From Haloarchaeobius iranensis (GTDB taxonomy: Archaea > Halobacteriota > Halobacteria > Halobacteriales > Natrialbaceae): DNA of 32,425 nucleotides. Location: contig NZ_FNIA01000029.1 in NCBI RefSeq assembly GCF_900103505.1, forward strand, positions 1 through 32,425. The letters are read 5' to 3'. Shown one piece after another: positions 15,120 through 32,100 of the stretch. Position 1 is the stretch's first letter. Every line of letters starts with the position of its first letter. Made by a program: the position numbers and the translations under genes. The notes beneath the pieces are model-generated. The model had not been told where the DNA came from. It was given only the letters and a program-made list of their open reading frames with translations, and made no database searches.

Positions 15120-15220
15120 GTAATCAACCCATGGCAGGAGGGGCAAAAGCAGTTTGCCCACAGGCAGGGATGTGGGTGACCGGGTCCGCTCATCCCACAC
15201 CAATAGAACTTACCATAAGA

Positions 15221-15230
15221 TATTTAATAT
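15221..15230 (+). promoter_or_regulatory. TATA region of the first AT-rich islet
   Basis: TATTTAATAT lies 25-34 bases upstream of the TTG at 15255 and 20-29 upstream of an out-of-frame ATG at 15250. A leaderless transcript could start at either. Confidence 0.55.
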
Positions 15231-15254
15231 CCGTATTCGGATGTCGTAAATGAG

Positions 15255-16145
15255 TTGTCGAGAGAAAAGAAAACTACCCGAAGAACTGTTATAAAACAGG
15301 TAAGTGCAGTTGGAACTGGAATATTTGGTGTTGGCAAAGCAGCGAGCATCGCGTCAGCAGCTCCCAGAGGACCGGACGAAGACGATAACACTGATGATCC
15401 AGGTGGCGGTGGCGACGCAAACTACGGAGAACATTCGATAGCGCGGTCCGCTGAATCAAACTTCATGGATGGTTCAGGAGTTAGTTACACTGCCGCAGGG
15501 AGCAGTTACAATATTTTGACAAATATACCGGAATGGGATTCCAGTATCGGTAAATATAGAGTGAACGTTCTCACAACCTCAGTTGCGTGTACGGGTTACG
15601 AGTTGGAGAACGGATCAACCGGGCATGAACGACTCTACAGGGGACAACACAGACTGATAGTAAACCATGATTATTCTAACCAGATATCCACGCAGGCGTA
15701 CGACGATGCTGAATGGGGAATCTCAACAATAAGTGATCACCAGACCGGCAGTTCACCGGGCAACGAGATCGCAGACTCGGTATATACGTTACTCTCGGGC
15801 TTTGGTGATTTTATTCCAACCTACTACGAGGCGATAGACCTCTACAACAGGCTCAATCAAGCGTATATCGACGGTGAAATAGATAAAACCTGGCTCGCAG
15901 AGAGCACCGGTCAGTCCCGGATGGGCCACATCGTGACATACAGACACGTGTATCCACCGCGGGAAGTATTGGGGACCGATTCGGTTAGCGTTTCTGTGAG
16001 GAACAAGCTTCACAATTCAATTTACGAGCCAGAAACAGACTGGACCGGGAACCGTGAACCGACGGACGTTTACGATCATACCCACGAATACGACCTGTAC
16101 GTACCGTACGCACCTGCCGACAGCAGTGTATCGAAGCGGAACTAA
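15255..16145 (+). CDS. Tat-exported, AT-rich secreted protein, halocin-like architecture (uncertain)
   Basis: A 296-residue protein with a twin-arginine leader (RR at 9-10 in TTRRTVIKQ, then a Gly/Ala/Ile hydrophobic stretch to about SASAA). An acidic Gly-rich linker follows (40-55), then a beta-rich part with one Cys (C112). Residues 171-204 form an amphipathic/hydrophobic helical section (ADSVYTLLSGFGDFIPTYYE). After a Trp at 213 come an aromatic strand (GHIVTYRHVYPP) and a Ser/Val strand (DSVSVSVRN). I know no name for it. The same order of parts occurs in the proteins at 19209 and 31435. The start is TTG; an ATG at 15250 is in another frame and reaches a stop after 14 codons, so a small start-region mutation is possible. 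DNA here is clearly AT-richer than its neighbours. The downstream membrane protein is a likely partner. Confidence 0.6.
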   Translation: MSREKKTTRRTVIKQVSAVGTGIFGVGKAASIASAAPRGPDEDDNTDDPGGGGDANYGEHSIARSAESNFMDGSGVSYTAAGSSYNILTNIPEWDSSIGKYRVNVLTTSVACTGYELENGSTGHERLYRGQHRLIVNHDYSNQISTQAYDDAEWGISTISDHQTGSSPGNEIADSVYTLLSGFGDFIPTYYEAIDLYNRLNQAYIDGEIDKTWLAESTGQSRMGHIVTYRHVYPPREVLGTDSVSVSVRNKLHNSIYEPETDWTGNREPTDVYDHTHEYDLYVPYAPADSSVSKRN

Positions 16146-16170
16146 TAGGGAGAAATACCAGCTAGCAACA

Positions 16171-16178
16171 AGAGGTAT
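16171..16178 (+). promoter_or_regulatory. Shine-Dalgarno-like site before islet membrane protein
   Basis: AGAGGTAT precedes the ATG at 16182, with GAGGT about six bases upstream. This is unlike the leaderless starts around it and supports translation from a shared mRNA with the gene before it. An AAATAC stretch at 16153-16158 could alternatively be its own TATA region. Confidence 0.45.
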
Positions 16179-16181
16179 AGA

Positions 16182-16967
16182 ATGAGTTATAAAAGAGCAA
16201 CTGTTCTCGTTTTAGTTGGTTTTGCGCTTATCCTGAATCCGTTCTATTTGTGGCCACATCATGGGGATGTTTCTTATTCTGTATCAACAAACGAGGTGCG
16301 GTCGGTCTCTGGGGACCCAATCAACGTGAGTACGCTTCCTCCCGAGACGGAAACCTTCGTGAAATCTCTGATTGAGCGCACTGAAGAGGGTGAAAGCGAA
16401 CAAGTAGTGTTCAAGGAGCGCTCAAGTATCCCTACAGATGGCCTCTCAGAGGCAGAGCCCTGGCCATTAGTTTCGCATAGTGGCGAAACGTATCGAATCG
16501 TCATTGAACAGGTGGAGCGTTCCCCACCATTACTCCCGGAGAACTGGATACTTCGAACCGCAATGGGAATGACTGGCTCCTTGCTCATCGCCCTCGGCGG
16601 AATTACTGCTATTACCGGGAGTAAAGAGCTGACTGCGAAGTCCTCGTGGGGCTGTGTCGGAATATGGGTTACAGTTCTTACCGGAACAGTAGCGTACGAT
16701 GGTGGAACACATGGACTCGGCCTCAGTACCGGGCTTGTGATCTTCGACCTACACGTGATTGGAGTACTCGCTCTCGTACTCCCGATGGTTGGAGTCGTCG
16801 CCGGTGTCGTCGTGCGGGGGTGGGGTACTGATATCACCTACGGTCCAGAGCAAATTCTCGTCATCGCGTTCATAGCAACAACGTTCGTATTGACTCTTCC
16901 CGGACTGTTAGTAGGCTATCTGTTCGGAGAATCAAATCAATCCGGATTGGTAGGTGGAGTAGATTAA
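16182..16967 (+). CDS. Five-helix membrane protein with extracellular domain, candidate immunity partner
   Basis: A 261-residue protein I cannot name. A first helix (7-25, LVLVGFALILNPFYLW) is followed by about 95 outward-facing residues (STLPPETETFVKSLIERT, then HSGETYRIVIEQVE) and four C-terminal helices at about 124-146, 152-172, 183-208 and 222-246. It begins 36 bases after the Tat-secreted protein gene on the same strand and shares its AT-rich composition, so the two probably moved and act together. In bacteriocin systems a polytopic membrane protein next to the toxin gene is often the immunity protein; here that is inference. Other options are a receptor or an anchoring protein. Confidence 0.6.
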   Translation: MSYKRATVLVLVGFALILNPFYLWPHHGDVSYSVSTNEVRSVSGDPINVSTLPPETETFVKSLIERTEEGESEQVVFKERSSIPTDGLSEAEPWPLVSHSGETYRIVIEQVERSPPLLPENWILRTAMGMTGSLLIALGGITAITGSKELTAKSSWGCVGIWVTVLTGTVAYDGGTHGLGLSTGLVIFDLHVIGVLALVLPMVGVVAGVVVRGWGTDITYGPEQILVIAFIATTFVLTLPGLLVGYLFGESNQSGLVGGVD

Positions 16968-17039
16968 CGAATCTCGGCGGTTGAAACCCAGAGATTCTGG
17001 ACGGGAGGCTACTTGACCCCCGCGTCCGAACCCCGAGCC

Positions 17040-18729: not shown

Positions 18730-19149
18730 TCAGTCGGCTGGCGTGTCGGTGTCCCCGATGCAACAGCCCCCAAACGAGACGTTCAGCTCTCCCGAGTTCC
18801 GGTAGCCGACCATCGCCTCCTGTTCGGCCGGGTCGTCGGATGCGGTCTCCGAGACCGCCGCCCCCGTCTCGACGTCCTCGACCGTCACCTCGTACGGCGC
18901 TGGCGCGGCCGACCAATGCCGGTTCAGTTCGCTGAACTCGTCGGCACCGAGGTCGAACTCGCGGTTCGCGACCTGTTCCCCGTCTCGCTCGACCCGTACC
19001 CGGAGGCGATGCTCGCGGCTGTCGTGGTTGAGGACCATGCAGTTCTGCAGAACCGTCTCTGATTCTCCTGAATCACCGAAACAGCCACTCACGAGGACAC
19101 TGCTGCAGGTAGCGAGAAGAAATCCCCTTCGCGAATGAATACGAGGCAT
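18730..19149 (-). CDS. Small Tat-exported lipoprotein
   Basis: A 139-residue protein with a Tat leader (SRRGFLLATCSSVL) ending in a lipobox, VSGC (Cys23), so it should be anchored to the outer face of the membrane. The mature part looks like an immunoglobulin-type beta domain (HRLRVRVERDGEQVANREFDL, then PYEVTVEDVETG) and ends with two adjacent Cys (GGCCIGD). No enzyme motif is visible. It starts 59 bases downstream of the halocin-like gene on the same strand, and its leader region has the AT-rich start of that islet while the body is GC-rich. It may be cotranscribed and could protect the producer, but it may also be an unrelated resident gene. Confidence 0.75.
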   Translation of the reverse strand: MPRIHSRRGFLLATCSSVLVSGCFGDSGESETVLQNCMVLNHDSREHRLRVRVERDGEQVANREFDLGADEFSELNRHWSAAPAPYEVTVEDVETGAAVSETASDDPAEQEAMVGYRNSGELNVSFGGCCIGDTDTPAD

Positions 19150-19208
19150 ATAAAGTAACTTGATTAAGGTCTTTGGCCCTGTGGAGTAAAAAGGTTAGTT
19201 TCGATTTG

Positions 19209-20210
19209 TTATTCGTTTTTCGAGTCTTCCGTTCCCCTGATATCTGATATTACGAGACTCGGGTCTGCGTACTTGACAACTTTTCCATCGGCATCAGCGG
19301 AAAGTGTGGACGAGCGGGGAAGGTCTTCTTGATCGTATACTTCGAGGACAGCATCTCGACTCGGTACCCTTACTCCCTCTACTTCTGCTAATTCCACATC
19401 AGAAGAATCTTGATATGGGGGACAGGGATTTCCATCTGTCTGTAGCTCGAACTCTTGAGTCGTAATGGCAGAGTAGATTGTTGCCTCTGCATTGGCTCGG
19501 AATGTCACCTCTGAAGTTTCATTATTCGGTGCCTTCCATAGAACATGCATATAGTTCGAAGGTTCGGTCTGAGTACTCCAATAGTCCCATCCGAATCCGA
19601 CGGATTTCTGTACCGGCGGTTCGGGCTTGTCGTTGCTCATTGCATTAAGAACATCTATCGCAGCCACACCGACGGATACATAATTATTGAGAGTTGTTAC
19701 TGCGCCTTGAATCGCTGCAAGTGCCACATCCTCATCAATATATGGTAGTGGGCTCCCCTCAGCAGGAGTGCCACCAGCATAGACATCGTCGTCAAAATGA
19801 TTAGGATGAATTTCTGAATCATTGTTTGTTTGAACGACGGCCTCAACTCCGTGGCTGGTGAGTCCCACCGAGTCAACCGAGCAATCTTTGTCCTGCAACC
19901 GCCCCTTATATGTGTTGCTCATTACGAAATCGTGGAGCCGATAATCGAAGTTTGATCCACCAAGCGTACCCTTGTATATCAGCGAACTCCCAATATCACA
20001 GAGAGCTTCGTTCTGGCAATCAGACGGTGTTGTGGGACCAGTTGGAACAGCGTGATGTTCGTGAGCATTCTCTTGCCACACATACTCAGCGTTGGATGAA
20101 GCATTTCTCCCGTTTTCGACACTGTCTGCTTCGGCAGAGGAAGCTATCATTACAGGAACACTCATGGCTGCTGTCCGGCTTAGGAACTTCCGACGGTTGG
20201 TGCGAACCAT
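19209..20210 (-). CDS. Halocin H4-like Tat-exported protein (candidate antimicrobial)
   Basis: A 333-residue AT-rich gene product. The Tat leader has RR at 6-7 (NRRKFLSRTAAMSVPVMIA) and probable cleavage near residue 29. A beta-rich part with Cys65, Cys71 and Cys110 is followed by a central hydrophobic stretch (161-192). Then come GWDYW (207-211), an aromatic strand and turn (YMHVLWKAPNNETSEVTF), EGVRVP (278-283) and KYADP (313-317). From memory, halocin H4 of Haloferax mediterranei has a similar length, Tat leader, central hydrophobic core, a WDY motif, a YYVTFTAPDD-type strand, an EGxxRVP motif and a late ADP motif, in the same order. I have not aligned them. Protease, adhesin or surface protein roles are alternatives. 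It sits between an M24 gene and the lipoprotein gene. Confidence 0.6.
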   Translation of the reverse strand: MVRTNRRKFLSRTAAMSVPVMIASSAEADSVENGRNASSNAEYVWQENAHEHHAVPTGPTTPSDCQNEALCDIGSSLIYKGTLGGSNFDYRLHDFVMSNTYKGRLQDKDCSVDSVGLTSHGVEAVVQTNNDSEIHPNHFDDDVYAGGTPAEGSPLPYIDEDVALAAIQGAVTTLNNYVSVGVAAIDVLNAMSNDKPEPPVQKSVGFGWDYWSTQTEPSNYMHVLWKAPNNETSEVTFRANAEATIYSAITTQEFELQTDGNPCPPYQDSSDVELAEVEGVRVPSRDAVLEVYDQEDLPRSSTLSADADGKVVKYADPSLVISDIRGTEDSKNE

Positions 20211-20243
20211 CAGCAGTATCTAATCAATACGATAGTATGAATC

Positions 20244-20258
20244 TTTATATATATATTA
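20244..20258 (-). promoter_or_regulatory. AT-rich promoter of halocin-like gene
   Basis: An alternating TATATATATAAAG tract on the minus strand lies about 34-48 bases upstream of the ATG (20210), inside a longer AT-only stretch. It is by far the strongest TATA-like element in the window and predicts a leader of roughly 10-15 bases. Confidence 0.55.
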
Positions 20259-20306
20259 AATAAAATTTAATATTTTGCTAGATTATAAGATTTCTCCAAA
20301 TAATTG

Positions 20307-21575
20307 CTAATATTCTATGACGGTTATCTCCTCGACGGGCCACTGGCTCAGCACCTCGACGCCGTCCTCGCGGACGACGACCATCTCCTCGACGCGGACG
20401 CCCTGGCGGTCCGCGGGCTCCATCGTCTCGACGGCCATCGTCATGCCCTCCTCTATCTCGATGGGGTGGTCGGGCGAGAGGCCGCGCCAGATGAGCGGGA
20501 CCTCGTAGAGCTGCAGCCCCAGCCCGTGGGCCCAGTGGTTCGTCGTCATCTGCCAGTGGTCGGTCGCGCCGTACCAGTCGGCGTGCTCGCCCTCCATGTC
20601 GGGGAAGCCCTTGCAGATCTCGTCGGTCGTCGCGCCGGGCTCGATGCGGTCGAGCACGTCGTAGAGGTTGTCGACGGCCGTCTCGTAGGCGTCCTGCTGG
20701 GCCTGGGTCGGCTCGCCGAGGGAGAACGTGCGGTAGTAGCAGGAGCGGTAGCCGAGGTAGCCGATGTTGTAGAAGTCGGCGTAGACGATGTCACCCGGCC
20801 GCATCATCCGGTCGGTCGTGTTCGCCTGGTGCTTCGGCCAGGTGTTCGGGCCGCTCGTGACGTAGCCGCCCTGTGCCATCGCGCCGTGGCGCCAGATCTC
20901 GCGCACCGCGTCACCCCAGACCTCGGACTCGCGCTTGCCCGGTGCGGCGTTCTCGACGATCTGCTGGAAGCCGGCCTCGCAGATGGACGCGACCATGCGG
21001 AGGCACTCGATCTCGTCCTCGGTCTTGATCTTCCGGGCGTCGTGCATCAGGTCGACGCACTCCTTCGTCCGCACGTCGACGCCGTTGTTCTCGAACGCGT
21101 CGATGAGGCCCATGTTGCCCACGTCGAGGCCCATCGCCTCCTTGTGGACGCCGTACTCCTCCATCGCCTCGTAGACGAGGTCCGCCATCTTCTGCTTGAG
21201 CCAGCTCCGTGCCGAGTCCCGGCCGGACGCCCGCGGGACGTTTCCCAGACCGGGGCAGGCGTACCGGATGTCGTCGAGCCACGGACAGTTGAAGCGCTGG
21301 TTGCTCGCGTGGTCGGCGGTGTCCCAGTGGACGATGTCGCCGTCCTCGGTGAGCAGGGTGTAGTGGTCCGCGCCGGAGCCGCCGGTCATCGCCAGGCCGG
21401 TGACGTAGCGGATGTTCGGGTCCGAGACCAGCAGCATCGAGCCCATCTCCGACTCTTCGAGACGGGCGAGCGCCTTCGCGTAGCGCTCCTCCCGGAGCCG
21501 CTTCACGTCGATGCGTTCCTCCCAGTCGACCGCCTGGGTTCCCCGCGTTCCCTCCATGAACGAGCGTTCGTACAT
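20307..21575 (-). CDS. M24 family pita-bread metalloenzyme with altered metal site
   Basis: A 422-residue M24 protein, longer than ordinary prolidases and starting MYERSFMEGTRG. The catalytic domain keeps Asp267 (VYADFYN), His350 (HWAHGLGLQ), Glu383 (AVETMEP) and Glu396 (GVRVEEM). In the stretch aligning with GYxSDxTRTF of active peptidases it reads GYRSCYYRTF, so Cys279 replaces the second bridging Asp. Non-peptidase members of this fold include creatinase, ectoine hydrolase and the DMSP lyase DddP. Length and the altered site suggest such a role, but I cannot choose among them. The ATG at 21575 is preferred over a TTG or ATG further upstream. It lies upstream of the halocin-like gene on the same strand but has different base composition. 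Confidence 0.82.
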   Translation of the reverse strand: MYERSFMEGTRGTQAVDWEERIDVKRLREERYAKALARLEESEMGSMLLVSDPNIRYVTGLAMTGGSGADHYTLLTEDGDIVHWDTADHASNQRFNCPWLDDIRYACPGLGNVPRASGRDSARSWLKQKMADLVYEAMEEYGVHKEAMGLDVGNMGLIDAFENNGVDVRTKECVDLMHDARKIKTEDEIECLRMVASICEAGFQQIVENAAPGKRESEVWGDAVREIWRHGAMAQGGYVTSGPNTWPKHQANTTDRMMRPGDIVYADFYNIGYLGYRSCYYRTFSLGEPTQAQQDAYETAVDNLYDVLDRIEPGATTDEICKGFPDMEGEHADWYGATDHWQMTTNHWAHGLGLQLYEVPLIWRGLSPDHPIEIEEGMTMAVETMEPADRQGVRVEEMVVVREDGVEVLSQWPVEEITVIEY

Positions 21576-31434: not shown

Positions 31435-32100
31435 CTATCTTTCAGGAAATGTATTCGCCGTTGGTTGACCGAATATAATCTCATGGTCGTCCGGGTAGGA
31501 TTCGATTCTTGAATTTGGAATCGGGTATCGATTCGGTGCTCTCTTTATTTCAGATATCGTCGCACTGTGGAAGCCATTATCTCTCATCTCCGCGGTGGTC
31601 ATCTGCTTAACCGTGGACGGAGAGGTACTCGGAGCAGTCACATTGATATCGTGTTGGTTTTCTAGATCGATTCTAGTGTAGTTTTCACTAAGCTCACACC
31701 CTGTCCAATTTTCGAGATCTAGGTATGCCGTCTCGTCTGGATCCATTCCAATCACCTCAAATTGTAGGAAGTAACAGACCTGTGGCTGTTGATAAATATC
31801 ATATGGGCGGTTCCCGTTCAGCCAGTCCCACGTCCTGTTAATATCTCCCTGGTAGTTCTCCCCATTGTACGCGAGTGTCATCTTCCCTAATATCAGACCC
31901 GCATCCATTACCCAATTCCACCCAGGGAGAAGGCTTGCCCCTTCTTCAACCACAGTACTCGCGAAGTTGTCATAATTTTCACTACTCTCTGAATCAGAGA
32001 ACCGAGAGGCACCGATCCATTCTTTTAGATTCTCAGAGGTTACTTGTCCGTTATTTGCATCACACCATATTTTCAGTTCGGTGTCTTCTATTGCATTCAC
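31435..32100 (-). pseudogene. 5'-truncated secreted protein gene, halocin-like architecture, cut by right IS
   Basis: A 221-codon AT-rich frame opens with GTG only six bases inside the insertion-sequence boundary, and a stop lies in frame within the IS end, so the native start and any leader have been removed. The remnant has a Cys-containing N-terminal part, a hydrophobic section (about 43-79, with ASLLPGWNWVMDAGLILGKM), RTWDW (89-93), an aromatic strand (VCYFLQFEVIGMDPDETAYL) and a Pro/Thr-rich tail. This is the order of parts seen in the protein at 19209. The reading frame itself is intact to its stop. It lies upstream of the LivK gene on the same strand, 157 bases away. Confidence 0.6.

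Follow-up and report, generated by a model that had tools for sequence, protein, structure and literature searches.

A halocin H4-superfamily gene paired with a lipoprotein gene in an AT-rich islet of Haloarchaeobius iranensis

Introduction

Halocin H4 (HalH4; HFX_5264 of Haloferax mediterranei) reportedly has to be cleaved by HlyR4, a halolysin, to release its active C-terminal part (PMC12893001), and was proposed by its authors to perforate the cell surface (PMC6759562). As far as we found, no curated family model exists for it and no immunity factor is known. A stretch of 32,425 nucleotides from Haloarchaeobius iranensis (contig NZ_FNIA01000029.1), here called the window, holds a gene for a possible relative of this halocin. 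A sequence-only reading had likened the product of this gene, P0001, to HalH4 and suggested that it is a diverged archaeal antimicrobial protein. Here, this suggestion is followed up by profile searches, comparisons of loci and genomes, and structure prediction.

Sequence features of P0001

P0001 (333 aa) is encoded at 19209–20210 on the minus strand, as are all of its features listed below, by an intact ORF with an ATG start and four cysteines in its product. At 48.6% GC, where the window's left part has 68%, and with a Tat signal peptide consisting of RRKFL (residues 6–10; 20181–20195) and a subsequent hydrophobic stretch, it is indeed the Tat protein in an AT-rich stretch that had been described. 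The hydrophobic core in the middle of the protein, some 32 residues long, and the motifs GWDYW, APNNETSEVTF, EGVRVP and KYADP are likewise all present, in the order given in the earlier description.

Hydropathy and alignment place the core, a candidate membrane-inserting segment, at residues 162–193 (19632–19727), where 32-residue hydrophobicity peaks at a mean Kyte-Doolittle value of 1.06; the working HalH4 sequence (see below) peaks at 178–209 with the same mean. Ahead of the core, a GGTP segment (residues 143–157; 19740–19784) aligns with DWVGSTP of HalH4, and behind it follows a W-x-Y strand, where GWDYW (residues 207–211; 19578–19592) aligns with KWDY, the tryptophan being the most conserved residue in the superfamily alignment. 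AEVEGVRVP (19362–19388) aligns near EEEGIYRVP of HalH4, and KYADPSLVI (19248–19274) at the C-terminus corresponds to the family's C-terminal DP motif (YVADPKK in HalH4). Of the four motif correspondences originally proposed, one is shifted: in profile alignments, APNNETSEVTF (residues 227–237) pairs with the ...SNSYESFTI strand directly after KWDY rather than with YYVTFTAPDD.

Relationship to halocin H4

As the Haloferax mediterranei protein was absent from the collections searched, these comparisons used a working HalH4 sequence, not a database record, checked against homologues and published primers. It matches database proteins at 54% identity over the full length (Natrinema gari) and others at about 32%. 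Published halH4 primers (PMC6759562 Table 2; PMC12893001 Table 2) fit it in five places except for one residue, covering the start, the mature N-terminus, the middle and the C-terminus.

P0001 is only about 14–18% identical to HalH4-type relatives, and pairwise BLAST against a HalH4-type protein was not significant. Relatives were gathered by a chain that did not include HalH4, leading from P0001 to L002, from there to L004 and L011, and from L011 to further proteins. A 13-member profile built from chain relatives only, with P0001, L002 and all HalH4-type proteins left out, recovered P0001 at 4.5e-18; the working HalH4 sequence scored 6.7e-11 and its Natrinema gari counterpart 3e-11, while two of the five proteins of HalH4 type fell short of significance. 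A 34-member profile lacking the window proteins and the HalH4-type proteins gave 3.8e-22 for P0001, 3.1e-17 for the working HalH4 sequence, and 1.5e-20 to 1.6e-9 for the five HalH4-type proteins, with matches reaching position 309 in P0001 and 305–313 in HalH4-type proteins. The 13-member test is the stricter of the two because some of the 34 members had come via a profile containing P0001 and HalH4-type proteins.

The non-significant BLAST result would fit a chance likeness made up of similar composition and a few short motifs. Yet, besides the values from both held-out profiles, the profile–profile score of 80.4 for P0001 lies far above those of 105 natural control ORFs (at most 21.1) and 60 shuffled sequences (at most 17.2), which rules this reading out for practical purposes and leaves it with a negligible probability. 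The likeness is hence more than one of composition, as had been argued, and the profile alignment originally proposed as a check is significant, with no competing unrelated family matching P0001. On the evidence of these profiles, P0001 belongs to the same superfamily as HalH4, of which it is a diverged relative.

Extent of the family

Halocin-like proteins were found in 40 of 392 sampled Halobacteriales genomes, mostly with one or two matches each and up to five. The family is diverse (only about 13–21% identity to P0001) and poorly covered by databases: P0001 matched no family in Pfam, NCBIfam, PADLOC or PHROGs, 20 members searched against Pfam and NCBIfam gave nothing beyond signal-peptide or marginal matches, and a 20-member profile met only signal-peptide regions in the PDB. 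Searches of plasmids and phages by tblastn, together with four viral-contig scans, returned no relatives.

The window contains a second member, overlooked by the sequence-only reading, as was the lipoprotein gene adjacent to P0001. This protein, P0002 (221 aa; 31435–32100, minus strand), was identified by profile (3e-8 with the 34-member profile); it is N-terminally truncated and has no signal peptide. At its truncated 5′ end lies a transposase DDE fragment (PF01609; 32127–32423, minus strand) that runs off the contig end, and P0002 is probably a decayed copy of a family member. Elsewhere, the members at L121 4103–5091 and L087 6451–7480 are each split into two overlapping frames, meaning that decayed or frameshifted copies occur in the family.

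A lipoprotein gene beside halocin-like genes

Directly downstream of P0001, at 18730–19149 on the minus strand, a gene encodes a Tat lipoprotein of 139 aa with the lipobox VSGC, a candidate immunity protein by its match to a lipoprotein profile and by family-wide adjacency. A profile of mature lipoproteins lacking this protein recovers it at 1.8e-12 (1.1e-11 when jackknifed), and the same profile also retrieves several adjacent lipoproteins that a simple gene caller had missed.

Close pairing of halocin-like and lipoprotein genes is conserved across the family. Over 41 loci, small Tat lipoproteins are encoded by 27 of the 73 genes within 500 bp of a halocin-like gene, as opposed to 4 of 468 genes at greater distances (odds ratio 68, p 5e-22; leaving out near-identical loci hardly alters this). 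By jackknifed profile, a homologous partner is present in 25 of the 41 loci, in 23 of them within 600 bp; by all criteria, including divergent types, the count rises to 33, with HalH4-type genes among them, and 8 loci have no recognised partner. At one locus (L002 1288–3044, L122 9579–10058), a transposase-like gene with a zinc-ribbon N-terminus takes up the upstream side of the halocin-like gene, and a partner-type lipoprotein lies 1.9 kb off, beyond the transposase-like gene. As 308 of 392 genomes hold members of the wider lipoprotein superfamily, with several copies per genome, most of them not beside a halocin-like gene, an exclusive association with halocin-like loci is ruled out: the superfamily is nearly universal in haloarchaea, and the pairing claim is one of enrichment. 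Since the relative position and strand of the partner vary among loci, the two genes do not always form an operon.

Adjacency alone is no proof of neutralisation, and the lipoprotein of a halocin-type killer could instead be its chaperone in secretion, its anchor at the surface or a co-toxin. Such roles would accommodate the variable position and strand, and other halocins may follow a different logic, as a title cited in PMC12893001 has HalC8 immunity arising from that halocin's own gene. However, several clusters can be told apart among the partner sequences, and the two closest relatives of HalH4 have one of their own beside them, as cognate immunity predicts, and an extracellular, membrane-anchored lipoprotein is well placed to counter a killer that acts on membranes. 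A role other than immunity appears unlikely to us.

A probable mobile islet

Relative to their flanks, family members have a GC content lower by a median of 14.5 points (p 5e-12) and partners one lower by 10.5 points (p 2e-10). The window's lipoprotein gene, at 64% GC, is much less AT-rich than that of P0001 (49%). Genome comparison delimits a two-gene islet of 1.58 kb (18735–20310). In the same-genus genome G001, window position 18734 is followed at once by 20311 and the flanking genes are joined directly, so the lipoprotein gene and P0001 are absent as one block. G005 likewise lacks both, save for a few bases, and a third genome, G003 of the same genus, retains a truncated remnant of the partner lipoprotein beside the same M24 peptidase gene, with no P0001 (L145 2778–2879). 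The pair was thus gained or lost jointly, and a mobile AT-rich islet is the best reading of the two genes.

These traits also bear on whether P0001, though homologous to HalH4, might be a beta-rich surface or matrix protein involved in adhesion, DNA uptake or envelope remodelling, with the lipoprotein as its docking partner and killing as a sideline of a single branch. DNA uptake and the structure of the cell surface are both influenced by HalH4 (PMC6759562), the low identity across the family leaves room for functional drift, and lipoproteins of this superfamily often occur away from halocin-like genes. Against this, sporadic spread among genomes, location in AT-rich islets, differences in presence between close species and the truncation of one copy next to a transposase suit a gene of conflict better than a housekeeping surface protein. 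We regard a surface role as rather improbable.

The window has a second AT-rich islet (15121–17005, 50% GC), in whose place G001 and G005 have only about 100 bp. It holds the Tat protein P0003 (15255–16145, plus strand), which matches the uncharacterised PHROG 27821 at 1.7e-5, and, 36 bp downstream, P0004 (16182–16967, plus strand), probably a membrane protein given its several hydrophobic stretches. P0003 was considered as a third family member and rejected, its profile score of 15.7 being noise; together with P0004, it may form another killer and immunity pair.

Structure prediction

The structure model of P0001 is unusable (pLDDT 32). The HalH4-type protein of Natrinema gari, modelled at pLDDT 59 and pTM 0.60, shows a beta sheet, helices and a further beta sheet, and is matched best by pore-forming toxins of the leukocidin type and by the rim of MspA (best Foldseek E for the toxins 7e-3; VIA Z 8.0–9.3 over about 140–175 residues, weak against a background Z of 7–8). 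One could thus refine the halocin reading by proposing that the family forms pores and has the beta-sandwich fold of staphylococcal alpha-hemolysin and the leukocidins, its hydrophobic core replacing the stem. These toxins are among the highest-ranked matches, yet TM-scores are near 0.2, MspA and arrestins reach similar scores, and confidence in the modelled core is low. We consider this refinement doubtful and, as its scores barely exceed background, the likeness to leukocidins is a lead only.

A proposed killer and immunity pair

Taken together, the reading that we favour, and consider probable, is a mobile islet of two genes, one for a secreted killer of the halocin type and one for a lipoprotein that is anchored in the membrane and probably shields the producer. 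P0001 would be exported via Tat as a precursor in which two beta regions, one at each end, flank a hydrophobic, alpha-helical core. As in the case of HalH4, its release would probably be followed by cleavage by a halolysin-type protease outside the cell (eight strong subtilase matches were obtained in the same genome), whereupon the core may insert into the membrane of competing haloarchaea and kill them. The adjacent lipoprotein, anchored outside the producer's own membrane, would most likely neutralise P0001, and both genes would move as one AT-rich islet. Of this picture, membership of the superfamily, the layout of the sequence, the pairing across the family and the shared presence or absence of both genes are established; cleavage, membrane insertion, killing and protection are extrapolated.

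P0001 shares with HalH4 a Tat precursor of similar length, the domain order, a hydrophobic core of equal size (32 residues), the tryptophan of KWDY/GWDYW and the C-terminal ADP motif. It differs in the positions of its cysteines, and the relation is invisible to pairwise BLAST. HalH4 is a known antimicrobial; for P0001, we infer an antimicrobial role from its sequence. The HalH4-type proteins of Natrinema gari JCM 14663 and Natrialba aegyptia DSM 13077 are of the same superfamily and, like P0001, adjoin a small Tat lipoprotein gene; unlike P0001, they are about 54% identical to HalH4, which sets them on a separate branch, and their lipoproteins belong to a different cluster.

NisI-type lantibiotic immunity lipoproteins are membrane-anchored, extracellular and encoded near a secreted membrane-active antimicrobial. 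The window lipoprotein resembles NisI in anchoring and gene placement, but is an archaeal Tat lipoprotein for which no sequence relation is claimed. HmHapP (HFX_0892), likened here by description, is another secreted haloarchaeal precursor that is antagonistic and activated by halolysin, with the difference that its active part is N-terminal (PMC12893001).

Outlook

More broadly, it is conceivable, though we would put it somewhat short of probable, that P0001 belongs to a large, unrecognised mobile system of killer and immunity genes, in which halocin H4-type proteins, possibly with a leukocidin-like pore-forming scaffold and a helical insertion segment, each have a cognate Tat lipoprotein, in roughly one in ten Halobacteriales species. 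Earlier notice of the pairing may exist. Its conserved occurrence in a broad and diverse superfamily provides a named candidate immunity gene and would make halocin H4 immunity testable. If the proposal is true, inter-species warfare by paired killer and protector genes would be widespread in haloarchaea.
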